Source: Gautieria morchelliformis
Taxonomy: Eukaryota; Basidiomycota; Agaricomycetes; Gomphales; Gomphaceae
Assembly (NCBI GenBank): GCA_015179125.1
Contig: WHVA01000034.1
Location: forward strand, 62,001-126,000
Reading direction: 5' to 3'
DNA: 64,000 nucleotides
In this document: positions 26,741 to 61,922 of the stretch, in pieces
How positions within the stretch are numbered: position 1 is the stretch's first letter
Layout of the letters: every line of letters starts with the position of its first letter
Notes under the pieces: generated by a model
What the model saw: the letters and a program-made list of their open reading frames with translations, nothing else
Told to the model about the DNA's origin: nothing
Database searches by the model: none
Position numbers and translations under genes: made by a program

Positions 26741-26900
26741 TTTTTTAGAATGCTGGTGATTCGTCCCTGTTGCGCCCGGGGCTTTTGAGGGCTTGGGCTC
26801 CCCAAAATTGAAGCCCGGCCCAGGGAGGGCACCCCGGCCACAGGCCATCATCCATGGACACGTCACTGATGCGTCCATGGACGCTTAACCCTAAGAGACC
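26740..26900. repeat. GGGCTTGGGC-type repeat, left member
   Basis: Contains gggcttgggctccccaaaattgaagcccgg and gtccatggac followed by aaccctaag. A related sequence in inverted orientation lies at 29340-29470. The two could be the ends of one decayed element of about 2.7 kb or separate copies of a short repeat. Confidence 0.35.
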
Positions 26901-27077
26901 ACAAGGGTCCATAGGAACCCCCATGTCCAAACACCATGTTTCCATGCCGCAGAAACTGCTCCTATCCCCCTTGCTGTTCAAGGAGGTCACAAATGCCTAC
27001 ATCCACAATCGACGCAGCAGCAGCATCGCCTTCCAACGGTACGCTAGCGCTGAGGCTCACAACCACCAGCCCGGTGT

Positions 27078-27336
27078 ACCCTCCTCGTCTTGGAGCGCCC
27101 TTGCACGTCTCTTCTGGCTGCTGGCATCATAAAGTAAGTGTCTCATTGCTCCACACTGCCGCCTTCACTGAACACTCGCGTCTCCCCCTTTTCCACTTGT
27201 GGACACATGCAGCACAGCGTACCCTCCTCCTTGGATCTGGCTTCCACATTTTGACATGTATGCCTCGTTGCTCCACATCGCCGCCTTCGCTGAACACTCG
27301 TGTCTCCCCCTCTTCCGCTCATGGACACATGCAGTG
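27078..27336. repeat. Two-unit tandem duplication, about 118-bp offset
   Basis: The block attgctccacactgccgcct ... tggacacatgcag at about 27148-27213 recurs at about 27267-27335 with scattered changes, each preceded by a gtaccctcctc motif (27078 and 27219). Confidence 0.65.
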
Positions 27337-27429
27337 ACGCCAGCGGCAGCATCGTTTGGTAAATTGGTGTGCGGGACTGTGTTAGGATGGGAGGGGTGTG
27401 GCCTGGCCTGGTCTACTGTGGGAAGGCGG

Positions 27430-28290
27430 CAGAGATTGGAGGACTGTTTCTATTACTACTTCTATCAGGACAGATCGATCGAGTTTGAGGTGAGGCTGTC
27501 AGGTATACTCAATGTTCATGCGCTCACAGCCAGGGAGTCCGCGGCACCACATGCTACTCAAGTCGCTCCTCATATAGGAGCGCAATATCACCAGGATTTG
27601 TTCTCTGTCCGTATCTATCCAATGGTGGATGGTCTTCACAACAGTGGCATTGAGTCCGACACTGTGCCTCTCCCGAACGCTCCAACGGGCTCTGTGGATA
27701 ATTGGGCTGGAAATGCTCTCATTATGCAAGAGCGCACACTCCGCACGACGCTAGAGGCGCCAGAGATGATGACTTTGCCAAAGATAGACGTTGGAGTATC
27801 GTAAATTTCTCCCCCATACATCATGCCAGCGGTAAACCAATGGGCTATGTCTTGGGATACAAAGGTGCCACCACCACGCTGCTTGCGGCGCCAGGGTCGT
27901 GGGTCATCAGACGTGCCATGTTTGCGGGGAAAAGTCTATGAGTTGTAAAGGATCGAGATGATGGACTTAGTGGCAGGATGTGGCCCACGGGACAATGTCC
28001 CGCAGACAACGGACCCACCTAGTGATTCAGTGGAGAAGTGGGCCAATGAAGAAGAGAGCATTGGTGATGATGATATCTTACTGTTCGTCACAATGGGTGC
28101 GTGCTCTGGGGGTCTAATCCAGTTCTTCGTCTGACGATGGCTCAATTTAGGTGTCAACCATATTCCTAGACCTGAAGATTGGCCAGTGTATGTATTCGTA
28201 TTCTTATCCTTACCTACCATACCTAGCCTCACTCCCTTTTAGGATGCCAGTTTAGCATGTGAGGCTCGCCTTCATGGGGATTAGCGTGAG
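27430..28290 (+). pseudogene. Copper amine oxidase C-terminal pseudogene
   Basis: The C-terminal catalytic domain of a peroxisomal-type copper amine oxidase (oxidative deamination of primary amines) is readable in pieces: FYQDRSIEFEVRLSGIL, then AQYHQDLFSVRIYPMVDGLH with a copper-ligand-like His, then DRRWSIVNFSPIHHASGKP, then GVNHIPRPEDWPV. Introns are kept (28097-28150 and 28188-28242), so this is a DNA copy, not a retrocopy. The N-terminus is missing. The Asn-Tyr-(Asp/Glu)-Tyr cofactor motif expected just upstream of FYQD is not intact. Frameshifts occur near 27740-27790, a stop near 27940, and the usual MPVEH reads MPV-stop. Confidence 0.75.
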
Positions 28291-28299
28291 TGAATGCAC

Positions 28300-29900
28300 T
28301 ACCTTCTTATTATTTTAATTGACCTGTAATCAAGGGTCATCGAATTACAGCCATTTGTCGCCGTCCTTGTGAACAGATTCCACCTGGAAATTGGAGTTCT
28401 AGGACTACAAACTTTGGAACTTGAAGGCCGGATGCAACATCGTTGTGGTAACTATGTCTGGGCCCAGGCCGGCACTTGGCTGATAAGTCTGTGTTCATCA
28501 CCATGACATCAGTCCTACACATATATATCACGCCTGCTAGACACAGTGCTGGCAGTGAAATTCCCGTCAGCAAAGCGTTCATGTCTGGATTCTTTCGTAT
28601 GTGTCCTTTCAACAATGTCTTCCAGTAGGTATGTTTTAGCATGTTTTGCAACATTTTGAACATGTACCATAGGAATATTTGATGGCAAGAAGAGATAAAA
28701 ACATGTGTTATTAGAGTCCGGTTCAACACTAGTCTGCTCGCAACAATTCCTTGTGGAATGTAAGGTGCCTTCTCCAGGTCTGAGCATATGGAGATGTTCC
28801 TGAGTCTGATCCTGCTCATGTTTGACATCCACCTCCTTGCGTGCAACTCCACCGATGACTGGAAAGTGAATGACACGTAAATATAGCTCTGTAAAATGGT
28901 TTCCATTGTATGGGTCCGTGAGACGCCATCCATTCTTGCACCATAGGAACAGTGGCAAGCGGCGAGAGCATGTCTAAAAAAGATATTTCTGTCCATCAGC
29001 TCAAGCCCTCACAACTGCAACGTTCTCGCCAGGATAGAGCTCATTTAGTGTCTTGATAATTCAAGCTTTTGGCTGGTTCCATTTTATTTGCTTGCAAAGG
29101 TGTTGGATAAAATCAACAAAAGTGACAAGCTGTTCAAAGCTGGCAGCTTCAAGGAGACCAAGATTTTCCACACTAACCAGTGAAAATAGGTTTGAAATAT
29201 CACTAGAGTATATATATACAAACAGCGGAGCAATTCGTGCCACGGTAAGCTTAGGAGCGTGCTCGTCGTGGCCGGCGATGAGTCCATATGAGACATTGTG
29301 GGCCCTAGGCCCACAGTCAACTATATTACTTAATGGATTCTAGGGTTTGTCCATGGACATGTCCGCAGACCGGCGCTCCCCATGGCTGGGGCGTTCTGGC
29401 CCAGGACGAGGGCTCGGGCCAGGCTCGGGCTCGGCTGGGCTAAAGCCCAGGCCTGTGAGGGAGGGAATTTTTCAATAAATGTACATATGGTAGATATTTA
29501 CAGCTCGTTGCATGACATAAGGCGCGCGCCTTTTCTGAGTTTGAAAAAAATACCTACCTTGCGAGTGCAATTGTGAGCTCAATTCTACTTCGAATAGCAT
29601 GATTTTTTGGTACAATGACTCCACAAAAAATAAGCAACAAGCCTCATATTTGTATTCATGCAATTGAACACTATAAAATTTTCATCTTTTGTACATCGCT
29701 GGACACATGCTAGAATCCCCCCTCCTTGTGACCCAGTTCCATGATGAATCGAAATGACGCGCCTTGAGTGGCTTGCTTGTCACGCTCGACCAGCAAACGC
29801 TCTATGTCTTCAAAGGCAGCTGAAAAGTAGTGTTTTGCCATCTTTCCACAGTATCATACGTCATACATGTACATAACCTAGGGAGGCCCGCTATGCTACA
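28300..29900. other. No recognised gene
   Basis: A 219-codon minus-strand frame (28337-28996) and an overlapping one (28515-28958) look like fragments of one degenerate protein, but I do not recognise it. 29.34-29.47 kb holds the inverted GGGCT-rich repeat. A 44-codon minus-strand frame lies at about 29708-29842, downstream of the Tc1 gene; I could not splice it on. Confidence 0.35.
29340..29470. repeat. GGGCTTGGGC-type repeat, right member (inverted)
   Basis: Holds tccatggacatgtcc and ctcgggctcggctgggctaaagcccaggcc. Its reverse complement resembles 26770-26890. Confidence 0.35.
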
Positions 29901-29911
29901 TGTCTACAAAG

Positions 29912-31084
29912 CTATACATACCCTGAGTCATGAAACCACCCATGTGCATGTTTTAGTGTAACTTTATTGAGTGCTTCATAGAGAAAGAGATATGGCTTAT
30001 CGGCCTCACCACTCGCAATTTTGGCATGAAATCTTGCCCCATGCCGCCGGATATATGCTTTCACAAATGAAAAGCACTCCTCTATAGGGTTGAAGTCAGG
30101 TGAGTATGGTGGTAAATATAGAAGCTTGATGCCCCTAGGAAGTTGTTAGAAGTCTAGCACATGTGACATCGGAAATCGCTTACTTAGCATCGCACATTTC
30201 CTCAACCCCTTCAACATGGTGTATGGAACAGTTGTCAATCACCAGGACACCTCTCGGTTGCGGATACGGATTCATCTCTTCGAGCAACCCTTCAAGCCAT
30301 GACTTGAAAAGGTCGCCGTTGAATGAACCGCGAACTATCTGGCAGTGGAGGATGCCATCTAACGTGATCGCAGGAAGTACAGAATATCTGTAATATCTGT
30401 GAGGAAGAAGTGGACATTCTATAGAGCTAGTGCCTACCGATCCCCTCTTTGAAAATACGATTTTTTCCTAGCGCGTTTTCCCTTGAAGGCACGACCCATT
30501 GTGCGATAGGTGGTATGAAGATTCACCGCACTTTCGTCACCAAAGACCAGTCGCGAAGGGTCTTCTTGGCCTATTCTATACGCAAAATAATCCCGAGTAT
30601 CTTGGCAGCGCTCTGCAGCCACTTTAGAGAGCTAAAACACCGTAAGTACACAAATATGGCAAGTGGGCTCCAAACTTACCTTCTTGGAAGTAATGCCAAG
30701 CAGCTTTAGAGTCCTTTGAACTGTAGATATTGACACAATAATATTGCGTCGCTCAAAGAGTTCATCGACGATTTCATCCAGGTAGATGTCCGGGTTTTGA
30801 TCAAGCAGAGCAATAAGGACATTGACAGCATCTGAATCAAGGAGGGGAGTCTTTCCAGGCCTTGCATATGACCTAGGATCTCGTACTGCATCGCCGATCT
30901 CATTGTATACCTGTAAGACGCGTTGAACAACCCGGAGTGACATATTCAGGTTCTCAGCGATTCCTGACGGTGGCTTCTGAAGCGTGTGGCGCTGATAGAC
31001 GACTAGCTGTTTGACTTCTTTACAATAGCGATTACAATGCCTGACCTGACTGGTTGCATCGTATTCGGTGTCACCGTCTAACAT
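29912..31084 (-). CDS. Tc1/mariner-type DD34E transposase, four exons
   Basis: Cut-and-paste transposase. Exons 30680-31084, 30438-30631, 30184-30387 and 29912-30134 join in phase through introns of 48, 50 and 49 bp into 341 codons and a stop, the normal family size. N-terminal helix-turn-helix segments (GIAENLNMSLRVVQRVLQVY, IVSISTVQRTLKLLGI) are followed by the catalytic domain: first Asp in LVFGDESAVN, second in GVLVIDNCSIHH, Glu in YSPDFNPIEECFS with 34 residues between the last two. RYSVLPAITLDG between the catalytic boxes is typical. No stop or frameshift is seen. Terminal inverted repeats were not found by eye, so mobility is unproven. Confidence 0.85.
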
Positions 31085-31139
31085 GATGCGGAGGAAAGCG
31101 ACTGTTGCCACGTGATGGACCTGGTGCCACGTGACGGAC

Positions 31140-31660
31140 CAACTAGCTAGCACCCTCGGTAGATGACTAGACGTTTATTGAAAGCCTCAATCATGACTCT
31201 CGAGCTGGTGAGAGCTCCTTCATCATTGCTTTGTCACAAAGAAATATTTACAGCTTGCACAGGACAGCAACGGACTCTACATGTGCTGTCTAAGGGAAGA
31301 GATCTATTTCTCTCGGTGCATGGGCACCGAACCTGGCATACCAAGCACGGCGTCGCGCACATATGAGGTGATGGGCTCCAGGATGGAGTTGTTCTTTTGG
31401 AAGAAACTTCCTGTGGGGAACTCGAACAGAAATCGACGTACACGCTCTCGAACGATCGCTTTATGTTGGTGATACCATGGCTACTACCACCAATTAATTA
31501 TCCGTGCTCAACTTGGTTGAGGATGACATAGATGCATCGTGCGATGAATTTGGGGAGAAAGGACGTGATGGACAGGAGGAAAGCGGACTTAGTTTCGAGC
31601 GGGGGGGTGGCGACGTTGTGGAGTGTGGGGTAGATTCGGCAGGGTTGTTTGATGTGCCTC
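31140..31660. other. No recognised gene
   Basis: Upstream flank of the Tc1 transposase gene. Two copies of a cacgtgatggacc-like motif occur at about 31110-31140. No coding signature. Confidence 0.35.
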
Positions 31661-31663
31661 TGC

Positions 31664-33201
31664 TCACGCCGCCGCCAGGGCTGGTGTCATTGCCGGGGTT
31701 GTGTGTATTCGAGCTTGCGTTGCCAGCATTGGAATTCGCGTTGGCTTTGCCGTGGCTGCTGACATTGGAAGCCACGCATTCACACTAGACCACGTAGGTG
31801 CGCGCAAAGGCGTTTGGGGTGCAGGTGCTGATGCTGATGCTGCCGAAGCCGCACCAGCCGGGGCGACGGAACCAGGACGCGAGATCGACCCACCCGAGCG
31901 CATCGACATGGCACGCGCCGAACGCACCTGCGGTGGAGATGAACCAGATGACGCAGAGGGGGGAGAGGGTGCGGAGGGTGCAGATAGCGCAGATGTTGGT
32001 TTCGGCGGCGTGCTGCTGTTGCGGGTGGGCCTGGACGTTGGGCTGGACGTCGAGTGCGATACCGGGGGAACTGGCGCGTCCACCTCCATGTCCACATCGC
32101 CCACACCGCCCTCCCCATCCCTTTCCCCATCCCCACCCTCATTCTCGTCCCCGTCCATGTTCACGTCCTTAGCACCAGCATGCGCCGGCGACTCCTTGGA
32201 ACATGTACCTCCCACCATACCATCCGCGAGACGCATCCCAGGCCTCTTTCTCTTGTGACTTTCGCGCGTGAGGGAGACGTCGTTGATAGCTCGATGCGTA
32301 TCTTCGAGGTCAAGGGTGCGCAAAAATATGGAATCTGTTCCCTCAATCTCTTGTATCACGGTGCGAAAGCGTCTGTCCAGGCTGAATTTATTGATCCCGC
32401 CTTCTTCTGAAAGCGATATGGTCAACCAGGATGGGATGCGAGCACAATGCCACAATGGCCTTGTTGTAACGGCATACCACATGGGAAGAGACACCTGCAA
32501 CATTGTCAGCTTGAGTCAGTTAGTCGGGAATGAGAATTGTACAATGTGAGAGGGCTCCTTGGGGGATACATATATATTACTTAGATCAAGGTCAGCCAAG
32601 CTCAAGGAAAATGGTTGAAGTTCAGGATTGTCGTCATCGAGGCCATTGCATCCCCGAATGGCGTTAGAAAGAAGCATCATACTGCGCTCGGCGGTAAATA
32701 TTGCGTCCTCAACATCTCTTTGGTAATTGTCAGACATATTCTGTGTAGACTGAGTTCGGGCGCACAGCTCTCGCTGAGCGCAGGCGAGGAAGTATTCCTG
32801 AGCTGTTGAGAACGGACCTCTGTCCAGCTGTAGCTTATTGCGTCCATCTATGTAAAATGGCGGGCGTACAATTGGCCCGACGTGAAAATCATCTGAATTC
32901 GATGAAAATAAACTCCCAATGGCGTCGAAACGATGCCGAAAGAGCTTGATAGTCCAACGAGCTACTTGAGCAACAAGATCTTCCTGTTCGGAGCCCGTGA
33001 GGCTCGAAAAGATCATTGCTAGTTTGATGCCAGGGATCTATAAGATTTGTAGTTTTCAGAGGGTGAGGTATGTGAGATGTTGATACGAACCTTCTCTAAT
33101 AACATATGCACTCCCAGCGGATGTCCTGCGACTAAATTAAGGTGAAGCACCCGGGACACAGGGATCGATGTTTTTCTAGCCAGATAGTTCATCGTGGCCA
33201 C
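31664..33201 (-). pseudogene. APH-type kinase, 3' exons, separated from 5' exon by inversion
   Basis: Exons 33091-33201 (VATMNYLARKTSIPVSRVLH, LLEK), 32543-33037 (IPGIKLAMIFSS ... PFSLSLADLDLSNIYV) and up to 32494 downward (VSLPMWYAVTTRPLWHC) splice in phase through introns 33038-33090 and 32495-32542. Two catalytic elements are damaged: the loop reads LADLD where the family has HADLD or HGDL, and the metal-binding IIDW segment expected after SHI is absent. The last exon runs into a long Asp/Gly- then Ser/Pro-rich tail (32.2-31.7 kb) unlike the family. The acceptor at 33202-33204 is now preceded by exons of ribosomal protein L4; the native N-terminal exon lies inverted at 34499-34595. Confidence 0.75.
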
Positions 33202-33203
33202 CT

Positions 33204-33213
33204 ACAAAGCTCG
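33204..33213. repeat. Inversion breakpoint microhomology, left
   Basis: acaaagctcg, the reverse complement of cgagctttgt at 34629-34638. It lies in the intron just before the APH exon at 33201. Confidence 0.8.
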
Positions 33214-33248
33214 AAACATGAATATACAACCAATTAACGCTCACGTAC

Positions 33249-33419
33249 TGTGCACTTGCTGCACGACATCGAGACGAATGGGGGCAGTGAAAACTGCAGG
33301 CAGGGTAAGAGAGGTCGAAGCCTCTGTGGCAGAACATGCGTCAGAAGCAAGCCCTCAGCAAATGTCTTCTACTGACCACCAGACCCGGTACGAACAGTGA
33401 CTGTGGGACAAGAGGCCAT
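33249..33419 (-). pseudogene. RPL4: Ribosomal protein L4, exons 1-2, inverted
   Basis: ATG at 33417-33419 opens MASCPTVTVRTGSG (exon 33377-33419). A 53-bp intron (33324-33376) leads to exon 33249-33323, EASTSLTLPAVFTAPIRLDV, ending VVQQVH plus one base before a gtacgt donor. This is the conserved N-terminus of eukaryotic uL4. The continuation (K-SIAKNKRQ...) is not downstream on this strand but on the plus strand from 34646, and the phases fit exactly: the single base A plus AG gives the Lys codon. On this strand the donor now faces the APH acceptor at 33202-33204, in the wrong phase. Confidence 0.85.
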
Positions 33420-34498
33420 TTATGAGTTCTGTGGGTTGCTATTGCGCATTAGCCGTATTGTTATTTGGGGCTCGGTGCTACCTGACTTACTGCAAACCGA
33501 TGCGCACTTCCTTGAGGTCTTGAAGTTGTGAGAAAAACTTAGCTTTCAGTTCAGCAGTTGCTTGACCCACATGCCTGGCTCACTCCGCACTACTCGGCGC
33601 CTTGCTATTCTGCTGAACAGGCAATGGCTAACTTCTACCGCTTATAATTCTGCTATTCACAAATGCGACAAAATATTCGATATAGTCCAATTTTCCTGCT
33701 GAGACTCGGGTTCAGAAGACCTTCTTATGAGCATGCTGTCCTGACAGATGAATTTTGATTTCGTCAACCTCACTGCCACTAGTGACTACAACTGATCCAT
33801 ATTGGGCGTTCGAATGCCTTTATATACGGCCTATTCTCCTATACGGTGGTGTCTAGCGTATCCACCCTAGCCGTTAAGACATCCGAGTCTGTCCAGTCGC
33901 GGCGAAGGAGTCAAACTACCAAGTGCATCACAGCTTGCTCCGTCATCCCCACGAACAAACCACCTGCTACTCGGGCGCTCTGAAAACATGCACAGGGCCC
34001 CGTATTAACGCGAACAGCTATGGGCAGCTATGGGCTCTAACTATCAGGTTGCCTATGTTTCTGAACGGCAGCGTCGAACAAGTTCGTACTGTGTTCTCAA
34101 CCACATTTCTCCAGCTAGGACATGTGCTTATGTCTTGTCATTTCTACATGGCACTTGGGTGCCGATTTGAATCAATAGCCATGTGGGTGGCATGTGGCCA
34201 ACATGCGTACTCACTTACCTCACATCGATAACCATCATATCGCCTTCTTCTCTTGCTCACATATCATAAATGGCGTACACTCTGCCTGCTCTGGGGATAA
34301 ACTTTGAGGCTTTAAAGAGGCGGTCTTCGACAATATTGGCGTTGAGATGACAGAGTTGGAACTAGTGGGGAAGAGTAAGTCCTGCTGTCCAAGTCATAAT
34401 GAAGGGACAAAGGGCTTCCACTGAATCTGTGACACAGACGAGTATTGCAAGGTCTGATCCATATATTTTAATCCGGGCAATGTTTCTTATTGGAAATA
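33420..34498. other. Inverted intergenic region between L4 and APH 5' ends
   Basis: Probably the former shared promoter region of the divergent APH and L4 genes, now in inverted orientation. It also contains degraded first APH exon sequence: MAYTLPALGINFEALKRRSS at about 34270 and VEMTELELVG at about 34343. No other gene seen. Confidence 0.5.
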
Positions 34499-34595
34499 GA
34501 CAATCAACGTTACTCTTGCGGACGGGAAAGATATCATAGCTCGTATTCAGTCCTCATCTTTGCCGAGTTATGTTATAGAATCTGAGGTGGGCAAA
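34499..34595 (+). pseudogene. APH-type kinase N-terminal exon, inverted
   Basis: Reads TINVTLADGKDIIARIQSSS, LPSYVIESE, the beta-hairpin of the N-lobe of fungal APH-type kinases. ESE|GTGGGC ends the exon in phase 0, which fits VATMNYLARK at 33201 on the other strand (family consensus SEVATM). On this strand it is now followed by the L4 acceptor at 34645. Confidence 0.75.
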
Positions 34596-34628
34596 GTCGT
34601 CCTCTGCCTGCAATGAAATGCACCCTGA

Positions 34629-34638
34629 CGAGCTTTGT
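34629..34638. repeat. Inversion breakpoint microhomology, right
   Basis: cgagctttgt, inverted partner of 33204-33213. It lies in the intron just before L4 exon 3. Confidence 0.8.
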
Positions 34639-34645
34639 TTGACAG

Positions 34646-35796
<1,151 letters not shown>

Positions 35797-36556
35797 AATA
35801 CTCTGATACGATTTGAACATGCGTCTTATGTCCTATACCTAGTCATGCCCCCAACATGCGTTTAGGTGCTGATCTATGATCATTAAGTGCGGCAACAAAG
35901 AGACGTTTTTTTGGCGGAGAACGGTGCTCTTAACGAGCAGGTTGCTCACCGTTACTGCATTGCAGACTCCTGCTAGAGGCTGCACAATAGTCACTGAGGC
36001 TCGTTTTGGCATTGTGCAAGTTTCTGCCTAGTGTCGTCATTGAATCTGACGCGCACATGGGTCGTCTTCCCCTTATACAGTAATATAATTCTATGCTCTG
36101 TCCTCTTCACAACCAGCGACAGGGTCATTTTACGCCAGTGCCACCCACATACATAGCCATTGCTCAGCTCATCCCAAACGAAATCCTCCTTCAGTTCGTC
36201 TTCTGAAAGCTCTCATTGCAGCTCGTGGGGTCAGTCAACATTGGCGATAGCCTACTTATTAGTAACTCGGGGGTCGTGGCGTCTACACCAGAACACGTAT
36301 GTTGCAGGCGGCTGACAGGCTTCATTTCTGAATAAGGGGTGATGCATCGCCAACTTTCCACAGACAGTGTATTGTCATTTGCAGAAGAGACAACGAGGGT
36401 GTAAGAGCATATATAGTGAGATGGGCGTCAATGGATAAGCCGAAGAATGTCCTGAAAGACTGTGCATTGAAAGGATCAGTATCTTTATGAATACAAAAGG
36501 CTCCAATGCGAAAGATGAGAACATAGTTGACTCAATCGCCGAATCTGTGAAGCAAT
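35797..36556. other. No recognised gene
   Basis: Only short frames and no motif. It separates the L4 relic from the Serinc relic. Confidence 0.4.
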
Positions 36557-36557
36557 G

Positions 36558-37270
36558 CTAAAGCCTCTCGTCAAGCATATGGATATGAAACTTGACTGAC
36601 CGATCTGGCATGAGCACCGGAGCGACGAGGCTCCAAATATAAAGCACCATGCAAACCCAGCTGGACACGACACGCATCCATATGGCCGGCTTGGAGCGGC
36701 CAATGTAGAAGTTGGGCTCCTTTCCCGGATCTCCTTCAGTCGCCTTGAGGACTTGCCTGGAATATTGTGAGGATATTTTAACAGCGCGCAAGATGATCGA
36801 CATACCAATCCGTGAGTAACATTGCTACGTACATGGCACCCATCAAAAATATGGCATGGAACCATGCATACTACAATGTAAATTTGTCGTCAAATGTCAC
36901 ACAATAGAAATTTGGCAGCAAACCACACATTATAACGAGTGCCAGTACATTCATCGTCTCGTTCCTCCCCCGCAATGCCGTCATCTTCATCTTCAACATC
37001 CTCCTCATCCAGAGCAGATGCAGGGATGGCACCCGCCCCAACCGCCACCAAAAGTGCTTGATACCTTGGCGTCTCGGTCCTCGACAGCTGGGATGTGATC
37101 AACGTGACACCGCCATCAGAAGCCATATCATTCGTGAATTGGATCGCACCCTTTTTGTGCCTACCAACAAGGGCTTGGCTCTGTGTTGCGGCGTGGCTGG
37201 CCTCTTGCACGGCAGGATGAACGCAAATGATGGTGATAATACAAAGGGAGAGATTGAAGGAAATGAAAGA
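36558..37270 (-). pseudogene. Serinc/TMS1 membrane protein pseudogene
   Basis: C-terminal half of a Serinc-family protein (multi-pass membrane protein linked to serine-derived lipids). Pieces: SFNLSLCIITIICVHPAVQE (about 37250-37190), AATQSQALVGRHKKGAIQ, the acidic loop ALDEEDVEDEDDG, CTGTRYN, then after an intron YAWFHAIFLMGAMYVAMLLTDW and, after another (36757-36805), GRSKPAIWMRVVSSWVCMVLYIWSLVAPVLMPDR with a stop at 36558. The usual segment between PAVQE and AATQS, with several membrane helices, is missing, so there is an internal deletion. The N-terminal half is absent. Confidence 0.75.
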
Positions 37271-37364
37271 ATCGATTGAGGGTACACCTGTCACTGGCGA
37301 AGAATCCATACATGACACCTGTGCAGCTCCACAACTGGCTGGTTGTTGGTGACAAATGTGAGCC

Positions 37365-37500
37365 GCAGCGTGAGCTCGACGAAGTTATCGGTGCTGATCG
37401 GCTCCCTACCTTTGAGGACCGCGACAGCCTTCCGTATATGAATGCTGTTTGCAAGGAAATACAAAGGTGCCCAACCTTGGCAAAACCTGTCATAATGATG
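37365..37500 (+). pseudogene. Cytochrome P450 K-helix fragment
   Basis: About 40 codons read QRELDEVIGADRLPTFEDRD and SLPYMNAVCKEIQR, the J'-K helix region of fungal CYPs with an ExxR-like E-I-Q-R. Nothing of the heme-binding loop or N-terminus is nearby. It is a short captured scrap next to the Serinc relic on the opposite strand. Confidence 0.75.
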
Positions 37501-37571
37501 AGTTAGTATGAGGTGAGGCAAAAATTATCTTCTTCCCACGCCAAACGCTATCGCCAAAAATCTCCTCCAGC

Positions 37572-39152
37572 ATGACTAAAACCAGGCCTTCTCGAAAGGG
37601 CAAAGACGAGCCTGCAGCAAAAGAAGCTGCAGGCAAGTCTGGCAAGCGCAAGGCGGTCGGGAGTCCAGAACCCATGGAGCCTGAGAGGAGGGAATCAACT
37701 CGGCCGAAGAAAACTGTTAGACTCGATGAAGCCCTCAATACAATACGCCAGATCAGTCGCAACGTTGAATACTCAACTGAAGAAGACTCTGATTTCATTC
37801 CACATGAAACCGTTGAGGCTGTCAGCGACACCAAGTCTATCGCAGATGTGTCAATTCAGAGCACAGACGAGCTGGAACCTCCAGCGAAAGTGTCGAGGGG
37901 CAAGGGGAGGCCGAAAGGGTTGTCTGTGAAGAAGGTGTTAACCATTTGCAGTGAGTAAATAAAACTTCGACAGATTGATCAGTGTACTGACCGTCCTCAT
38001 TTAGCACTGGCGGTTATTGTACCTGATGGCCGTTCCAACTCAGGCGGTTCCCAGCAACTTACCATGAAGTCATCAACACCATGCAGTAGCTATAAGCATG
38101 ATTCATGAAGCAATGGGCTGTACTGGCGTAAAAGTGAAGCCGGAGGGGAAATACCTAGCGTACTCTGTGAAGGGGCTCGGCGGTAAAGGCATTAGCCTCA
38201 AGATGATGGGATCGGCGGACTGGATCACAATGCAGGAACATATCAAAACTTTGATCAAGAAGGATGATGAAATCATCACCGTGACCCTTGTTGTTGATAA
38301 GAAGGTATGCATATATCATGACATCATTTCAAACGCCGAGATTCACATCCTAAATATAGTACATGGAAGCACTTCGAAAGGAACTCGCACCTGTACCTGG
38401 TGGCAAACGAGGAAAAGTAGCCCATTTAGATCTTAGTGGCAATGCTACTGGTGGAAATGCGGCAGATTCCTTTGAAGAAGCTGAGCAACAATGCTTGAAG
38501 ACCCTGAAGCTTGGTATGAGATGCCAGACCTGTGTCCCGGGGAAGTATTGCAAGAGAAATGACATTGGTGCCCATGTTTGTTTCACCATGCCCCAGTTGA
38601 GCGCATGGGCACGCGCTCTGGTAAGTCTTCTTGGATAGCTACCGGACTGGCTAATAAATTTATTCATAGACTAATGAGGCACCCGGGGTTGATTATTCCT
38701 ATCCACCAAGGGGGGCGCTATTCCAGGACTTTTATATGAAACGGCCTGCGGGTACCAAACAAACGACGGCACCACATGATCTCACGCAAATGGCCGCATC
38801 TAATTCTCTTCAGAGTAATCTCCTGACTCTTTTATTGGGCATGGCCGCCGGAGCCGCACAGCCGGGACCAGTCACCACCCCTATTATCCCGATGCAAGAT
38901 ATATACAGGAACATTATCTATCCAGATATCGCGGCCTTTCTTGGCAAGGTAATTGAAGATACGCCACTTCGTGCCGAGCCCTTGAAGGGTCTCTGCACCA
39001 GTCTAGCAAACCAAGACTTTTACACTATTGATGAGATTGCCGAAGAGACCGAGGAGTGGTTCCGAAGTGACCCTTATAACCTCACGGCCGGTAATGCAAG
39101 GTTTGTTGTCAACATACTTAGGGCAGGTATGACAACGGCTCAGAGTGGATAA
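37572..39152 (+). CDS. Unknown five-exon gene, 455 aa, AT-hook-like segment
   Basis: Exons 37572-37950, 38005-38031, 38087-38304, 38360-38620 and 38670-39152 join in phase to 455 codons and TAA. The second intron uses a weak donor (gttcca); the others are canonical. The N-terminal 130 residues are charged and Lys/Arg/Pro-rich, with an AT-hook-like RGKGRPKG near residue 117, suggesting DNA or chromatin binding. A middle domain holds HEAMGCTGVKVKP and a Cys cluster CQTCVPGKYCKRNDIGAHVC that could bind zinc. The C-terminus is helical (YPDIAAFLGKVIEDTPLRAE, EEWFRSDPYNLTAGNARFVV). I do not recognise the family. Unlike its neighbours it shows no stop or shift. Confidence 0.65.
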
Positions 39153-39182
39153 CTTACTCACAATCCGCTATACTACATGTTT

Positions 39183-40520
<1,338 letters not shown>

Positions 40521-40525
40521 CCGAA

Positions 40526-42465
40526 ATGACTGGACATAGCACGCCCAAGGGCAAGAAAGCAAAGTTGTCAACGGGTCAGAAAACTTTACACAGCTTTTTC
40601 CGTTCTCCTTCCTTGAAGAGCCCAGAAGACCAGGGAAGTACAGCGGAAATGCAGGACCGTGAATTGGTTGAACTATTGGCACGAAAGGACAGAATTGATG
40701 TGGAGATTACCAAACGTTTAGAAGCCTCGTGGCAGAATACTCGTGCCAGCAGCAGCGGTAGGAACACGACTGACGCCATCGAGGTAGATTTAGACCAGGT
40801 CTCCAGCGGCAACACGGATGGCACAACATCAGTGTCAACTATTATACCTGGGATGTCACAAACACATCCTCGTGATCACGTTGCGTCGGGGTCCAAGCTA
40901 CCTGAACAGACATTCTTGTCTACAGTTTCTCCCCTCATCGATGTGAACCCAATCTTCCACCTCTTTGAGATCCCTGGACCTATGTGTAGACCCAGCAACG
41001 TTCGCGGTCAACAGTAATCCCCCTTGGTCACCACTCACACAGACCCCATATTCTTTCCTCGTTCAGGCTCTTTCAACCCTCTCACAGACGCGCTCTCGAA
41101 TTTTAATCCTCAACACACTGACAAATTACCTCTGCTTGATATCACTTTATGACCCTCCATCTCTTCTTCCGTCCCTTTATCTCTTGTCAAACACACTTGC
41201 CCCTCCTTATCTCTCAGTAGAACTCGGATTGGGAGTGATCATCATTTCCTGATCGATCCAGCAAGTATCCGGTCTGACTTCTGCTGCCCTGAGTAAACTT
41301 TACAGATCACTGGGCGATCCAGGGGACGTCGCTTTCGCTGCAAAATCGTCCGTGCGGACTTTGATTCCTCATTCAGCTCTTACCGTCCTTGGTGTGTATG
41401 GCACCATGCTAAAGATTTCTCGGGCGCAGGGTCAGGGTGCAGCCAAAATCAAGCAATCGCTTGTTGAAAAATTACTTCTATCTGCTAAGGGCGAAGAATC
41501 TCGGTATCTCGTTCGCACGCTTTGCCAAAACCTCCGAGTGGGTGCAGTAAGGTAAGTCAATTGCCATTGAATTGAAACAGACTTTACTGGCATTCAAGAA
41601 AACAATCATTTCGGCCTTAGCGCGTGCCATGGTCTTTCCTCCTCTGGACCCATCGGTGTCTAAGCATTCCAAGTGGCATGCCTCTCCTGAGCTGCTTGAA
41701 AATGTTCAACCCATGACTTCCAATGGAAAGAAAAAAATCTGTGGTAGATCCTGCTCGTCAGGAGCTAATAGAAATATTTGCAAATGCCGAGGCCTTGGTC
41801 AAACTGCTTTGTGCAACATCCTAATTTAGACAATATCGCAGCGGCGCTCCTATAGGTAGGGTTAGAAGGGCTAGCTGAACGTGTCCCCTTGGCTGTGGGT
41901 ACGTGCTCCGGAGTGACCATGGCGTCATTGTCCCTCTTTCCTAATTCTTGTAGGTGTACCTCGTCATCCAACCTTAGGATCTCCCATGCGTTCTTTGGAT
42001 GAGGTGTACGAATGACTTAATGAACAGCCCTTCGTGGCAGAATACAAGTATGATGGGCAGAGGGCTCAGTTGCATGCCTCATGAGGTTTGGATGGTACTT
42101 TGACCGTGAAGATTTTTTCTCGGCATCTTGAGGACATGACGGACAAGGTTTGTAGCCTCGGATAAAATCAACCCACTGCGATTTAACACACCCTACGACA
42201 CCTAGTATCCGGACGTCATTGCCTTAACAGAACAACTTTTCGCATTGCATCCTGAGCTATCTTCCTTTATTGTGGATGCCAAATTTGTCCCGTTCGACAT
42301 GAAGACAGGTGGACTAAAATCCTTTCAAGAGCTTTCACAGAGAGCCCATAAGGACGTACGACTTGAAGATGTGACTGTGGCCGTCTGTCTATTCATTTAC
42401 GAACTCATGTATCTCGACGTTGGATCCAGGACGGAGACAAGGAGAGTTGCGAGACGAAGACACTA
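40526..42465 (+). pseudogene. CDC9: DNA ligase I pseudogene, N-terminal to adenylation domain
   Basis: The first frame (40526-41017) has a PIP box QKTLHSFF near the N-terminus, for PCNA binding. The DNA-binding domain follows with LSQTRSRILILNTLTNYLCL, PSLYLLSNTLAPPYLSVELG and GEESRYLVRTLCQNLRVGAV in several frames. The adenylation motif EYKYDGQRAQLHA with its catalytic Lys lies at about 42040-42075, followed by a stop. FIVDAKFVPFDMKTGGLKSF and FQELSQRAHKDVRLEDV then run to about 42400. The OB domain is missing. Multiple frame changes and at least one stop exceed what introns can explain. Confidence 0.8.
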
Positions 42466-42469
42466 GTGA

Positions 42470-43700
42470 TGTCGACGACGAGCAGGGACTTCGAACGCTG
42501 AGATACAAAGACCCGTAAGCAGTGCGTGGGGCTAGTATGCACTCTGCAAATGTGTGGCTGACAGAGATCAAGTAAGCGTTCATCCGTAATAAGAAAACGT
42601 ACAAAGTATATCTGCCCCAGCTCCCAATAATGACTTAGGTCGCATACACTAAACTCAATAATGGAAAGTATCCAAGTCGATAAACCGACACGGTCATCAG
42701 CGAGCATTCAGCGTCAGCACCAGGCTAGACTAAGCTAGACTCACAACACCGGTCATACCCCCTCAGACATTTGCCCCGCTTGACGGCCACACCCACCCGA
42801 TGAAATACCATAATATCCGTAGCCCAACTACAGCTCCAACGATAAGTACGAGGAGACAGTACTGCTTGAGCGAACCTGTGCTCCCGAATGCATGTGCGGC
42901 TCGCTGCGACGACTGGGCAAGGGAGCCAGCAAATGTAGTGAAAGTTTTCCCTTGTTTGAAGGGGGATGTGAGGGAAACAGTGGGAATACTGAATGGCGTC
43001 GCTGTCGCTTACCGTTTCGTCCAATGTGGAGTTCTGCCGCTCAACATCATCATAAATATCTGTTGTTACATGACGCCAGCATCAGTGCAATGCACCTCAT
43101 ACAACTTGAAGCATTAGGTGACACACACGCCTCTCAATGTGCGGATTTTGGAGTGCAGTGTGTCCAGTTGTTGGTCATTCTGCAATTCGTGGCGGCGGCA
43201 CGAGAGGAACCCATTGGTATTCAAGCTCCGAATATGTACACCTGCGTTTACTAGCACCATACTTACTGTAATGGACTCTCTGCTCTAGTGCTGCTCCGGC
43301 CTCCCTGGCTGCTGTCTCTGTGGCCTAATCGTCCAATTTTGCTATCAAGCTACTAATTATCGAGATGCAGGTTTACAATAGCTGCGACGGGTGGCTTCGG
43401 CTAGCGTGATTCATTTTCAGAACACCAGGCCTATCGGAAATGATAGAATGTATAGTGTCTATCAAATACTTTGGAGTCTTGCCTAGAATTATCCGACCTG
43501 GATAGCCATCTGAAAATTTCTCCACAATTGCCATAGAATTTCACAACATGCATGGTTTATGTCGGAGTGGGTGGCTGAGTGTATTTAGAAAGTCGTTACG
43601 CATGGTATGTCTTTACCCCCTGAATTCGTGGCTAATGATTCAGGATACGGGTGCGTTTTATACTCCCCTTTTGTCAGGTCTAGCTCTAATAGTTAGTTTT
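42470..43700. other. No recognised gene
   Basis: Short frames on both strands, none with a motif I can name. Confidence 0.4.
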
Positions 43701-43717
43701 ATTTAGAGCACCTGCTC

Positions 43718-44070
43718 GTGCATACGCTACCCAACCACCAGCCTATCGCCGATAGTTTCCGCACACTGCTATGTGCTACACTTCTGCAACCATCTGCTAT
43801 CTTGCCAGCACTTTGGTACATAGGCCGCTTCCCCTTCTTTTTCAGCGTCTTCACCTACAATTCTAAGTCCCAAAGCAAGGAGTTTAAGTTTCGTCGGGAA
43901 CTTCTTGGTGAAGGGTCCCAAGGTTCAGGCTTGGAACGAACGAGACTGCTGTTATAGGCGTGCGCATGCACCATTTCGACTGCTTCTCCTTGGCGTTATG
44001 CTTGCCAACAAGTGGCTCGATGACAATACGTTTTCTAACAAGACATGGTGTGTTATTTTGCTGTGAGGGC
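43718..44070 (+). pseudogene. Cyclin-box fragment (Pcl/PHO80-like)
   Basis: In two frames: an N-terminal piece PSAILPALWYIGRFPFFF and, at about 43918-44060, AHAPFRLLLLGVMLANKWLD followed by DNTFSNKTW, which is the core of the N-terminal cyclin fold. The helices between them are disordered by a frame change. Only about 100 residues remain. It could come from any cyclin of the Pcl/PHO80 group. Confidence 0.6.
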
Positions 44071-44140
44071 AACACTAATGACGAAGCCACAACCAAAGAT
44101 ACTCAAGGAGATAAGAGCCGATACTAGGACAATGACCAAC

Positions 44141-44220
44141 TGTGTAGTGGGTATCCTCAGGTTATAACTCTACCAATGATAGATACATGGGGACTTGCCT
44201 GTGTAGTGGGTATCCTCAGA
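44141..44220. repeat. 20-bp direct repeat, 60-bp spacing
   Basis: tgtgtagtgggtatcctcag occurs at 44141-44160 and 44201-44220. Confidence 0.85.
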
Positions 44221-44289
44221 GATCAAGCTGAAGAAACGCCACCACACGGGCTACAGTCTTATAGCGCTGGCAAGGCTTACATAATAGGG

Positions 44290-44447
44290 GAGACGGAAAC
44301 TTGTAGAAGGTTATGGAAAGTGATGGAAGGTCATGGAATGTGACATGTGGCGGGAGGTGACATGTGACAGAAGGTGATGGAAGGTTATGGAAACTGATGG
44401 AAGGTGACGGAAACTGATGGAAGGAAATAGAAACTTGTGGAAGGAAA
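44290..44447. repeat. Short-unit minisatellite (GGAAGGTGATGGAAAC type)
   Basis: Degenerate 10-15 bp purine-rich units such as atggaaggttatggaaactg recur for about 150 bp. Confidence 0.8.
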
Positions 44448-44585
44448 CGCGTGAACCCTGACGTTTGCCTTGCCTCTCTAGTCTAGTCTAGTATGTTTGA
44501 CCACATCAATAGGCGTCAAGTATCTGGTGTTCCCATGCGTGTGCTGAACAGGCTCGAGAGCCTTGGTCTTGATCTTCTTTCACAT

Positions 44586-45128
44586 GACTTGTTGATGCTT
44601 CCCCAGCGTGGGAACAATGGCTTGACCACATGCAGATCTACCATCGTTCCTTTGCGCCGTACCCCGAACCCATCGGACCTCCGAAAGATACACTGCACAT
44701 CATCATTCGTCGCATGATCGAGGACCTCATCCTTGCTGGTTCGCCACCGATGACCACTGGAGTCCTTCCTGAACCTGTTTTCCTCGGACTGGAAGAGCGT
44801 AAGAAGGAACGTGAGTGAGAACGGCTCGTCAAGGAGCAGGTCAAACTCCTTGATCTTGACCTCGATGAAGACGGACCTCTCAGAGAACAATACCTGGCAA
44901 AGAAGCCCAGGACGGCCGATCGGCTCGAGGGAGATAGGAAGGCGATTGAGCATATGACGAAGGGGCTTCCACCACCAGCTGAATGGTGTCCTGCCGCCGA
45001 TCCGCCGATCCACCGCGCGAGGCCAACCTATCAAGCTGTACAGAGACCACCGCGTGCCCCCGTCTTAGCTCATGCGAACGCGCACGTTCCTGAGACCGTG
45101 TTACACCTTCAGCAAGCTAATGGGTAGT
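44586..45128 (+). CDS. Unknown charged protein fragment
   Basis: One frame reads SPAWEQWLDHMQIYHRSFAP, ILAGSPPMTTGVLPEPVFLG and LDLDLDEDGPLREQYLAKKP, and ends at a TAG at 45126-45128, interrupted once by TGA at 44816-44818 (GAACGTGAGTGAG, which could instead be an intron donor). Composition is even and protein-like, with a Lys/Glu-rich helix. I do not recognise the family, and no convincing start is visible. It may be a pseudogene or the last exon of one. Confidence 0.4.
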
Positions 45129-45129
45129 T

Positions 45130-45990
45130 TAACTCATTGCCATATGTGTGCGCACCGTGCGGGACAGACCCCTCATTGCGATATGCATGTGCGACGTCCT
45201 CCGGCTTGTGGCCGTAAACTGGACATATTCATCTCCGTCCTTTCGAGTATTGGGTTTCTTGTCTGCTGTCCAAAGTGTAACTTACTCATGTATATCAAGC
45301 CAGTGAAACCATCAGCTTCTAAATCCTGATACTATTTACATTGGGAGGTGTCATACAGTGCATGTGTTGTGCTCAGTCCCACAAGCGTGCCTGGGCCTGC
45401 ATGAGGCCACGTCCAGTCTGTGCTGGGGGGTTTGCATGCCCCTTGTTGTCAGTCTGCATGTGGTTTGGGAACACCTGCCTGTGGAAGGTTTAGTATTTGT
45501 TCTGAGTGATAATAGCACATGCACTTGTTCCACCAGAGCAGGATAGCATCATGATCCTTGGCCGTCGCATCTTCATTCACGCAGGTAATTAGTCCGCAGT
45601 AAAAGGTGTAGAAATCAAAAGTGTGCCCGTCGCCCCTAGGTCGAAATCTGGTCTAGCAGGTGTGTACTTCGAGATTGTTCTCAAAGGCTCAAAAGCGCAT
45701 CTTTGGAGAGTGCATGTTTTTGGTGTGGAATGGAAGCACTGCAGGATTTGCACATTCCTGTGAGGCAACGGTGGATGATAAGGGTGGAGTGAGGCTGGCT
45801 GGTTCTGGGACCTGTTCCATAATTTGGGCATGGGCCATGGTCTCCATGCAATCAGAGGACTTGTGATGGCTGTCATCATAAAAGTACTCTGACAACATCT
45901 TAAAAGGTTTCGCCACCAGTCTAAGCATCATAATATCTTTTCTCGACAGAGTTCATAGGAACAACAATGCGCAATAGCATTTAGCAATGG
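45130..45990. other. No recognised gene
   Basis: Mixed short frames. The right end borders the Harbinger element. Confidence 0.4.
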
Positions 45991-47464: not shown

Positions 47465-48780
47465 TCATGGAAGTATTGTTGGAGGAAAGGGGGAGGACAT
47501 GAATAACGAAGAGAAGTCTGATTCAGCTCCAAGCACGAATGTGCGTTTGTGAGGAGAACACCAATGCAGTACATGGTGCCACATGCATTCCCCCATATCT
47601 TGTGCTTCCAAAAGGCCTGGAGGAATGGCCAATCTTGCAAAACAAGGCCGAAGCCGTGCTCTATGGATCCGTACCCCACCCATTGCCGTGTTCCATGCCC
47701 ATTGTTCTGTGGTAAGCGCATTCATGGTGTAATATGGACTCATGATAAAGGGGCTCACCCCATAAGCTGAATCACCATACACCTGGAAATAACAATCCCC
47801 GGGTGCATCCCCTTCCCATGACCCAGGCTGAATCGCATACCGCTCGAGATGCTGGAGCAGTGAGCTTTCCTTCAGGACTCCAGCATCGTTCTGTGGGGCC
47901 CTGTATGGGCCAGCTAGATGTGGAATCAACTCATTGGGGACGACAACCCCCTGAAACTTCATGCCATGACATTTCTTGTAACCGGTGTATGTAAGCTCCT
48001 GATACATCCCTGGCCGGCACGTCTGCCGGATCGTGCAATCGATGAAGCTGAAGACGCTGCGACAGGGTGCTCCAAAATTGTAAAGGGCATCAGCGTACTC
48101 ACCCAGCTTCTCCGGGGACAAAAGGCCATGCCGGTCCCAGTCAAGGAGAAAGCCCCACTGGGCATCGAAGACAGAGGCCATCTTGTTGGTGATTTGGGAG
48201 ATAGTGGACTGAGGACGGTGGTAATTCGTGGATAAGGACCACTGGTCCTCTGGGCTCCGCAGGCGTGCACAAAGAAGTGAGATCACCTCGAGGGCACTTG
48301 CATGGCTTCCAGAGGCTGTGATGAGAGGTTTTGGGAGTTGCAAAAGATCCGCAAGGAGCTGAAGTTCCCCTGCTGTAAACCTAATGTGGTTTTTGTGAGT
48401 TTGTTCAAGCATTCACATGTAGTGTATACTCACCTGAACCTCCAGATGCACTCGGCCTCACTCATCTGCCGGAGGTACTCCGGCGTTATCCGCTCGCCCC
48501 CCTGTTCAGGGTGTGGGACCACATTGGGCAAAGAACTGCAGATGACTGAGATGGAGAGTGTGTCGTCAGGGGTCAGGTCATCGGTCGGTTCAGCAGTTGT
48601 GGTGCCAGAGGGGTGAATTCCAGAGCCAGGAGTATGTCGTTGCAGGAGGAGGAGGGGCACAACAGTGGCAAGAGAAGAGTCTTTCCCTGGTGGAGGTTGA
48701 CAGAAGGCATAAGGAGAGCAGCGAGGATGGAGCAGCGTGTTCGGAATATATGGTCCTAAACACGTGTCAGTCACGTGCAT
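47465..48780 (-). CDS. PIF/Harbinger DDE transposase
   Basis: Exon 1 (48434 to about 48780, start uncertain, ATG at 48778-48780) ends ECIWRFR. A 53-bp intron (48381-48433) joins it in phase to FTAGELQLLADLLQLPKP, and the frame continues to 47465. Catalytic residues: Asp in VFSFIDCTIRQTCRPG, Asp in YFQVYGDSAYGVSPF, Glu in LTTEQWAWNTAMGGVRI, matching the DDE_Tnp_4 order. The N-terminal YHRPQSTISQITN region is a helix-turn-helix candidate. The frame carries no stops, so the protein may be intact. A 17-a homopolymer at about 47369-47385 lies between the two convergent genes. Confidence 0.8.
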
Positions 48781-57253: not shown

Positions 57254-58735
57254 CTATGTTTGTATGTGCCCTTGGTTGTTTCTGATATGTTCGTTGCGTT
57301 CCTCCCACGACGCCGTCGTCTCAATATCCAGCTTCTCCAACCGCTCATCCTCCAACTGCAAAAATTCACTTGGATGCTGGGTAGTTGTTGAAATCACGTA
57401 GTAAACGAATCGTTTCTGATCCTGAGCTTCTTGACAGCGCGACATATGCGTTGAACGGTGTTAATCCCCCTGTTGGGGAGTGGCGATGTCGACGATGACG
57501 CAGGGCAATGTCTGTCCTTGGGATCTGTAATCGGTGAAAGCGTAAGCAGCGGTCAATGGAAGTTGTCTTCTGGTTACAGTCTTCGGAGTTTTCCCTATTA
57601 GGATTGTGAACGTTTTCTGTATTGGCACGATGGGTACGACTCATTCTGCTAATCCTGGCAGCGTTGCCGCTTTCGTTCGGTGTAACTTGACTAGCACGTA
57701 AGCCGGTGGATATTTCAGCTGTTTCATCACCTCACTGTTGGCAATGCTAGGTTCTCGCTCGTCCAGAACAATGCCCACCACCTCACCTCGGGCACCGTTT
57801 GCGATATCCAGCTCAGTGTGGACATTGAAGGTCACCATGACTTGGACATCTGCAGGTAATGCACCCTTACCCGAATGCCCCTCTCCTTCGCGCCCTGATT
57901 TGCTGCTAGTGGCTGCATATTTTTCGGCTAGTGTCAATGATCGCGCTCGAATGGTGTCTTCTGCATGACTGGAGAACAACCGGTTTCCTGTTTTCTTACA
58001 ATGCTGCTGAACAGCTGCCTCATTCCACAGAACACGCACTGCATGCCTAGGTGTCACAAGAATGGCATCCTTCCATGGTGCAGCAGAAACATCAACCCCG
58101 GACGTCTCCTGATTTGTTAAAACAAGAGACTGCAATAGATGCAGGTGAGTCTCCTTGCAACGACCATGTCGTGCATGCTGAAGCAACTCTTGCCAATCAG
58201 GGTCCGTTACGCGTACCTGTCTGCGCAGGCGGACGACTGTCTTGAACTGTTCGTATATCATCCTTCCATTCACCTCATCTTCGGTATCCTTTGCCAGATT
58301 TATTGGCCAATATAACGGTGCTGATTTCTGTCCTGCAACAGGTGGAAACTGATGCAAATCTCCCAAAATTATTATGTTGACACCTCCAAACACGCTGCTC
58401 TCTCCAGCCAGGCTACTTTGTGCCTTCGCTTTAGCAATGATCTGACTCAATTTTGCCAACAAATCACGGGACACCATTGATATCTCATCTATGATGAGAT
58501 ATCGCACATGTGCCCAGTAAGCCGTTAACTTCTTCTGTGCCTCGGCTGACTGCTGCCTCCCATTGCGTGGCAGCATACTGACGGTGTGTAATGTGCTACC
58601 ACCAATGATTGAGGCAGCAATTCCTGTATACGTGGCCTTAACTAGCCAGTTCCGCATGGTGTGTGCGGAGAAATCGTCTGTAACCATTTGGATCACTTTG
58701 GATTTACCTACACCACCTTCTCCCAGGATATGCAT
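57254..58735 (-). pseudogene. Helitron PIF1-like helicase domain
   Basis: ATP-dependent 5'-3' helicase of the RepHel protein. Walker A LGEGGVGKSKVIQM at about 58700-58735, Walker B YLIIDEISMVSRDL, motif III IILGDLHQFPPVAG and VVRLRRQVRVTDPDWQELL are in one frame down to 57641. Motif V/VI pieces (GGLTPFNAYVALSRSSGSET) continue in a second frame at 57366-57644, and the tail HPSEFLQLEDERLEKLD in a third to 57254. The two shifts disrupt the last quarter of the helicase. Confidence 0.85.
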
Positions 58736-61860: not shown

Positions 61861-61922
61861 CTACAAATAGGGTTGGTGTCACTCAGAAACAAACTGGTGT
61901 GAGATGACGTACCTGCGCTAGC

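Follow-up and report, generated by a model that had tools for sequence, protein, structure and literature searches.

The fungus Gautieria morchelliformis, mentioned among ectomycorrhizal fungi in the part of PMC7550596 cited here, carries pieces of three neighbouring genes, for ribosomal protein L4, an APH-like protein and Serinc, in the 64,000-nucleotide stretch that we analysed (the window; G000:C382:62001-126000). At this locus, L4 exons 1-2 lead into APH exon 4 (33091-33201) on the minus strand, and APH exons 1-3 (34270-34586) lead into L4 exons 3-6 (34646-35795) on the plus strand. The first-pass annotation had explained this arrangement by a 1.4-kb inversion that cut within introns and reciprocally exchanged the 5' exons of a formerly divergent gene pair. 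Comparison with the other copies of the locus bears this out: the flip spans 1.43 kb and has the opposite orientation in 3/3 other copies, its breakpoints lie in L4 intron 2 and in an APH intron according to the copy alignments, L4 and APH are divergent on contigs C836, C451 and C226, and the intergenic region travelled along with the exchanged exons. Two points need correction: the 10-mer at the breakpoints was not common to both introns before the flip, and the gene pair was by then already dead.

Copies of the locus and the inversion in the window

We searched the whole 122-Mb, 1113-contig assembly with probes from L4 (411 bp), APH (521 bp) and Serinc (561 bp), and each probe matched the same four loci and none besides: the window on C382, C836, C451 and C226. 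The two L4 matches in C226 arise from 641 bp of L4 in tandem, a duplication inside the L4 copy (C226:222656-223938) whose units are 97.5% identical. One extra locus, on C160, came from the L4 family search as a full-length single-frame match and is known from that search alone. The other three copies are approximately 96% identical to the window copy, to which BLAST aligns them at 93-98% identity in separate pieces either side of the flip, and any two of the four differ by 1.8-3.9%, in a nearly star-like pattern. Ploidy or haplotypes were considered as a simple reason for four copies and not kept, since the region at 26.8-29.0 kb, 3 kb leftward, has many matches with none on C226 among the 40 of 53 candidates that were scored, and since the ribosomal gene L2, used as a control, has no foursome of near-identical copies (matches on C249, C1 and C802 are mutually 86-90% identical, and that on C1048 is like none of them). 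The left stretch (26800-29000) holds a copper amine oxidase open reading frame (ORF) with many partial copies at 90-94% (C192, C715, C219, C892, C500 and others), apparently an amplified gene fragment.

The copy on C836 is the open one. Its L4 gene encodes an uninterrupted protein of 370 aa in six exons, matched by the public protein P0047 with 100% identity over the length of the latter, and scores above cut-off for both PF00573 (E 1.3e-38) and PF14374 (E 6.1e-31); in the window, the ORF at 34835-35281 matches PF00573 with E 1.4e-9. The C836 APH-like gene is likewise open, with 436 aa in seven exons by our own gene model. Pfam PF01636 on the first 364 of these 436 aa remained under the cut-off of 23.2 (E 4.8e-4, 20.4 bits) and some of the 45 listed database relatives carry PF01636, hence the label APH-like; the best of these, at 78% and 85% query coverage, is from Ramaria rubella. 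Taken alone, the window's APH pieces gave no APH match in the Pfam scan, and the predicted APH-like identity rests on the open C836 copy.

Segment 33204-34629 is reverse-oriented between the same neighbours in all three other copies (BLAST), which thus keep the exons of both genes with their own partners, a check that the first-pass annotation had proposed for relatives and that is answered here within one genome. The left hybrid junction has a single genomic occurrence, in the window copy (genome-wide, up to 2 mismatches), and the uninverted APH junction has three, on C226, C451 and C836 (genome-wide, 2 mismatches allowed); the right hybrid junction was compared against the three other copies. 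As judged from the assembled sequence, the inversion is confirmed as real in the assembly and as derived, with the flip confined to the window copy. The reverse polarity, with the window order ancestral, was rejected because the open C836 copy is uninverted and the duplicated 10-mer described below is exclusive to the window.

To an assembly artefact, in which one 1.4-kb piece was misoriented in a repeat-rich region, four near-identical copies would lend the classic setting, and the evidence consists of assembled sequence alone. A piece misturned between intact copies would, however, be expected to keep the copies' own letters at its ends, whereas the junction sequence of the window (5-10 bp duplicated, 4-9 bp lost) is in none of the three other copies, which makes simple misassembly unlikely, and the left junction is unique in the genome. 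Window-private substitutions are moreover found inside the flipped piece (16) as well as outside of it (25 and 13). We therefore regard an artefact of this kind as very unlikely.

Scars at the two breakpoints

In C836, C451 and C226, the sequence is ...CATGTTT(C/T)GAGCTTTGTTTGACAG in L4 intron 2 and ...CACCCTGACTTAGTTGTAGG in the APH intron; the window junctions read ...CATGTTTCGAGCTTTGT joined to AGG and ...CCCTGAC joined to GAGCTTTGTTTGACAG. The 10-mer CGAGCTTTGT occurs in the window at 33204-33213 (minus strand) and 34629-34638 (plus strand), with no third site. It occurs once in the C836 stretch and, in the form GAGCTTTGT, once each in those of C451 and C226, and it was not found in the APH intron of any of these three uninverted copies. 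The earlier claim of a shared inverted 10-mer is thus right for the window breakpoints, but the two introns did not have it in common before the flip: in its place, the uninverted APH intron has CTTAGTTGT, and letters of the L4 intron were copied to both ends. Because it is missing from the uninverted APH introns, the 10-mer is best explained as a scar of the flip and not as an old inverted repeat. Recombination between pre-existing inverted 10-mers in both introns, possibly reversible, would find its substrate in the pair seen at the window breakpoints, yet in 3/3 uninverted copies the APH intron has no such 10-mer, which contradicts this account unless the window lineage by itself had acquired one in that intron ahead of the flip, and the pair is best read as product rather than cause; homologous recombination also usually needs far more than ten bases. 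Such an origin appears extremely improbable to us.

The stretch (C)GAGCT(TTGT) of the L4 intron is present at both ends of the flip, amounting to 5-10 bp depending on the assignment of TTGT and of the 1-bp C, and the APH intron has lost at least TTAG (4 bp) and at most CTTAGTTGT (9 bp). At the breakpoints, the alignments contain intron sequence only, with no long inverted repeat or transposon. The inverted duplication derives from one ancestral breakpoint and the uninverted copies have no such duplication; these scars fit a putative staggered double-strand break that was filled in and end-joined, and we infer double-strand breaks as the cause of the flip. In the portion of the Drosophila work cited here, an inverted duplication exclusive to the inverted arrangement is taken as a sign of staggered double-strand breaks (PMC5080602). 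Similarly, a breakpoint piece is inversely duplicated at both ends of the window flip and in the inverted arrangement only (PMC5080602; also PMC3355041), and, as described for Drosophila inversion O8, the duplicated piece stems from only one ancestral breakpoint (PMC5080602). Unlike the Drosophila cases in that source, ours is a 1.43-kb flip and not a chromosomal inversion, has a duplication of 5-10 bp and not of gene size, and resides in a dead fungal duplicate (PMC5080602).

Table 1. Features of the L4/APH locus and of the unit that carries it (window positions)
Feature	Positions	Strand	Remarks and basis
Inverted segment	33204..34638		L4 exons 1-2, intergenic region, APH exons 1-3; copy alignments
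Left breakpoint	33204..33213	-	10-mer CGAGCTTTGT of L4 intron 2 joined to the AG/GTGGCC acceptor of the APH intron; 4-bp microhomology TTGT; alignments, junction search
Right breakpoint	34629..34638	+	duplicated 10-mer CGAGCTTTGT between APH intron (...CCTGAC) and L4 acceptor (TTTGACAG); alignments
L4 exon 1	33377..33419	-	counted by hand
L4 exon 2	33249..33323	-	stranded from exons 3-6
L4 exon 3	34646..34788	+	TAA stop 34675-34677, window-only; same base gives AG 34677-34678 fitting the P0140 join
L4 exon 4	34841..35408	+	+GA frameshift (about 35157-35164), common to C451 and both tandem C226 copies
L4 exon 5	35462..35651	+	4-bp deletion, window-only
L4 exon 6	35704..35795	+
APH-like exon 1	34270..34374	+	1-bp deletion, window-only; P0140 starts with the last 28 bases
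APH-like microexon 2	34438..34451	+	14 nt
APH-like exon 3	34500..34586	+	now upstream of L4 exon 3
APH-like exon 4	33091..33201	-	now downstream of L4 exon 2; limits by counting
APH-like exon 5	32543..33037	-
APH-like exon 6	32273..32495	-	truncated at 32273 in window, C451 and C226, not in C836
Foreign piece joined to truncated APH	31615..32270	-	beyond C226/C451, best match C704:287437-288117 (91%)
APH - L4 - Serinc piece	32273..37323		matches C836:18363-24141, which has complete APH and L4 genes and an apparently continuing Serinc frame
Repeated mosaic unit carrying the L4/APH copy	29498..45647		partly collinear with C451 and with C226, which has an inversion of its own
Sharp left terminus of the unit	29498..29712		TTACAGCTC.TTGCATGACATAAGG..., palindrome GGCGCGCGCC; 13 genomic places, 12 contigs

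Decay of the gene pair and the hybrid products

In the window, C451 and C226 alike, GAGAGA replaces GAGA in L4 exon 4 and shifts the frame, APH is lost at the same point (32273) with the same junction to C704-like sequence, and Serinc shows a gap of some 190 bp, presumably a deletion, since in C836 the frame continues. As the flip is in the window copy alone, the shared +GA, the APH truncation and the Serinc gap predate it, and by this reading of the alignments L4 and APH were both dead before the flip. The first-pass annotation had correctly noted that both genes carry other lesions; the order that it left open is now largely settled, except for the lesions exclusive to the window, i.e. the TAA in L4 exon 3, the 4-bp deletion in L4 exon 5 and the 1-bp deletion in APH exon 1 (C451 has its own, different 1-bp deletion in the latter exon). 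The window pair is moreover a duplicate, and the open copy is on C836. With introns kept, the TAA, +GA and 4-bp lesions, and an open parent on C836, the window L4 has the marks of an unprocessed RPL4 pseudogene.

Private substitutions in L4 (371 codons, all covered, stop codon included) comprise 1 nonsynonymous (N) and 2 synonymous (S) changes in C836, 15 N plus a stop and 5 S in the window, and 6 N and 3 S in C451. The share of CpG-to-TpG/CpA among private changes is 27/54 in the window, 24/45 in C226, 21/40 in C451 and 4/43 in C836, and at 10/43 differences between C836 and all three others, C836 has CpG and the three have TpG/CpA. The pattern is as CpG decay of basidiomycete repeats would give: in the cited part of PMC4352252, C-to-T changes of Basidiomycota repeats are likewise concentrated at CpG. 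Unlike in those repeats, the changes here affect gene cargo and have nearly spared the open parental copy, and are known from sequence alone (PMC4352252). Several points weigh against our reading of the copies and their decay. Given the near star-like divergence, the clade of window, C451 and C226 rests on shared indels and junctions, with few shared substitutions. Private changes are polarised by majority among the four copies, without outgroup DNA, and the L4 counts of C226 (13 N plus 2 stops and 0 S) are the least certain because its row crosses the tandem duplication. Private changes in APH (273 of 437 codons) have no contrast of the L4 type, the N/S counts being 6/6 in C836, 9/5 in the window, 7/4 in C451 and 4/5 in C226. 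The 45 listed relatives of the C836 APH protein include no Gautieria protein, and the C836 APH gene model thus comes from this analysis alone. Finally, all evidence is from one assembled sequence of one genome, by which both assembly and fixation are judged.

C226 has a second inversion of its own, C226:220231-232144 corresponding to window 32491-44053, which covers 11.6 kb, shares 4-5 bp (ACAC/GGTGT) at its ends and has one breakpoint at an APH exon boundary. That two of the three dead copies carry different inversions is what one expects of sequence not under selection.

The splice phases are as the first-pass annotation gave them, and in the hybrids they clash: both hybrid introns (47 and 59 nt) keep GT and AG, but an L4 end in phase 1 meets an APH start in phase 0. 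The L4-APH reading runs ...VHSGHDELSG and stops, and the APH-L4 reading runs ...ESERASPRTRG..., stopping 37 residues past ESE. The "reciprocal promoter exchange" of the earlier interpretation is accurate as anatomy only, since each hybrid junction shifts the frame. A 310-aa public protein from the window contig, P0140, is named "ribosomal protein L4 domain-containing protein". It spans window 34347-35792 and begins MTELELVGK-T-VSVKAGH; its exon limits were deduced by comparing protein and DNA. It joins APH exon 1 (34347-34374) to 34679, beside the AG created by the same C>A change as the TAA stop, crosses the two L4 frameshifts by means of "introns" of 35 nt (35150-35184) and 20 nt (35529-35548), and has 10 foreign residues in place of the first 51 of L4.

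Working hybrid genes, with an L4 fragment under the APH promoter and start (as in P0140) and APH under the L4 promoter, draw on the P0140 start MTELELVGK, encoded by APH exon 1 and continued by L4 exon 3, on the fit of this join to the AG from the C>A change and on the GT and AG retained in both hybrid introns. Against this, P0140 needs 35- and 20-nt introns to pass frameshifts, the direct hybrid junctions are out of frame, L4's first 51 residues are swapped for 10, and the coding changes in L4 look unconstrained. We hold working hybrids to be highly improbable, infer lack of function, and take P0140 as a prediction artefact over what appears to be a dead locus. One could also imagine that the flip and the in-phase AG acceptor from the C>A change made a young transcribed APH-L4 fusion, present in the public annotation as a protein, under the exchanged half of a divergent promoter, and that its RNA and the oppositely driven L4-APH RNA act on the C836 pair, e.g. 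via small RNAs, a conjecture that we rate as decidedly unlikely.

The carrier unit and the course of events

The dead copies are embedded in a repeated mosaic unit (Table 1). Its sharp left terminus was counted at 13 places (15 listed rows minus two short matches of about 50 bases), with unrelated flanks at all 6 distinct sites read; these 211-215-bp sequences with the palindrome GGCGCGCGCC (L055-L057) constitute a repeated family of this genome. On C226, the terminus is present at both ends of a 17.9-kb unit (217243 and 235141), inverted, over 211 bp and at 95% identity. The window unit retains the left end only, and the left end of the C451 unit is beyond the contig. Although the window copy of the unit ends at 45647, this position was rejected as the right end of the unit, as C226, C451 and C448 run on together past it. 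The right part of the unit also occurs on C448, ordered as in the window, and there the L4, APH and Serinc probes have no listed match. The unit also holds dispersed repeats of 112 bp and 114 bp and a piece matching C1042, C432 and C359. These short repeats (31502-31615, 114 bp; 37361-37472, 112 bp) adjoin mosaic seams and each occur at at least 25 to 35 places. At window 44054-44463 there are about 410 bp with TTTGC-like ends, which C226, C451 and C448 do not have there; 212 bp of this stretch match C155 (L055:3006-3216, 98%).

On this basis, the APH-L4-Serinc piece is probably transduplicated cargo of a terminal-inverted-repeat element. A Helitron, suggested by the hairpin-like left terminus and by the Helitron in the window, was not kept as the carrier because the same terminus is inverted at both C226 ends. 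The window does contain Helitron-type ORFs at 57641-63304 (PIF1-like helicase, Helitron_like_N and DUF6570), and Pleurotus ostreatus Helitrons resemble our unit as basidiomycete mobile elements with gene-like cargo (PMC4289320). The C226 unit differs from them in its inverted ends, and the cited part of that source concludes that the Pleurotus Helitrons do not capture host gene fragments (PMC4289320).

The unit may instead be an ordinary segmental duplication or the product of break-induced copying, with the terminal repeats as unrelated insertions. No target-site duplication was found at the C226 unit, the only complete unit read (flanks ...AACATCATG and GGATTGTGT...), and window and C451 do not show both ends. 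No transposase could be assigned: every Pfam match of the transposase-like helix-turn-helix (HTH) ORF inside the unit (30632-31174) is under the cut-off, a Pfam scan of 6 further unit ORFs gave none, and the DDE_Tnp_4 match at 47465-48412 is outside the unit, without link to the termini. The absent target-site duplication, the lack of an assigned transposase and the missing second ends speak for such an origin. The sharp 211-215-bp terminus at 13 places with differing flanks at the 6 sites read, its inversion at both C226 ends and the relative of the right part on C448 without the three gene probes argue in the other direction, and we deem a segmental duplication possible but rather unlikely. 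It changes the origin of the copies only, not the inversion. Elsewhere in the window, an NPHP3_N/AAA-type NTPase ORF lies at 1902-4082 (its NACHT match is weak), beside about 14 WD40 repeats (3881-5542) of about 129 bp and about 90% mutual identity.

With a transposon as the putative carrier, we consider the following course of events very probable as a whole. The divergent APH-like/L4 pair and Serinc, open on C836, would have entered a repeated mosaic of 16-18 kb as a copy, probably carried by a transposon with terminal inverted repeats. Within that copy, APH would have lost its 3' end and L4 would have gained the +GA frameshift, before the unit spread to at least three places (C382, C451 and C226). 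Later, and in the C382 copy only, two double-strand breaks, a staggered one in L4 intron 2 and another in the APH intron, would have allowed the 1.43-kb piece to be end-joined backwards; fill-in would have duplicated 5-10 bp from the L4 intron, and the APH intron would have lost 4-9 bp. The outcome is two hybrid, frame-shifted pseudogenes with promoters and first exons exchanged. The sequences themselves show the orientations, the breakpoints, the bases gained and lost, the lesions common to several copies or private to one, and which of the copies is open.

A literature search, taken at the level of its listings, returned nothing on this case. The closest likeness for the cargo is the hAT transduplication of histone H3 in Dothideomycetes, where a housekeeping gene was also copied within a repeated terminal-inverted-repeat element and where, in P. 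fijiensis, the original H3 stays intact and the copies decay by C-to-T mutation, according to the parts of these sources cited (PMC6710886, PMC3538342). By contrast, the cargo here is 5 kb of genomic DNA that includes introns and spans three neighbouring genes, in few copies with 211-bp terminal repeats in a basidiomycete; it decays at CpG and not CpA, and no hAT hallmark or target-site duplication was found in it (PMC6710886, PMC3538342).

The inversion thus belongs to a known kind of event and struck a pseudogene copy; it is derived and late, and its mechanism can be read. What makes the case unusually complete is that the before-state is kept three times in the same genome, so that the positions of the cuts, the bases copied or lost and most of the succession of events can be followed base by base. 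It also carries a warning for databases, in which a dead flipped copy is recorded as an L4 domain protein that is an APH-L4 chimera stitched over frameshifts. For the fungus, it provides what looks like an end-joining inversion at the 1.4-kb scale, in gene cargo that, without selection, was rearranged more than once.

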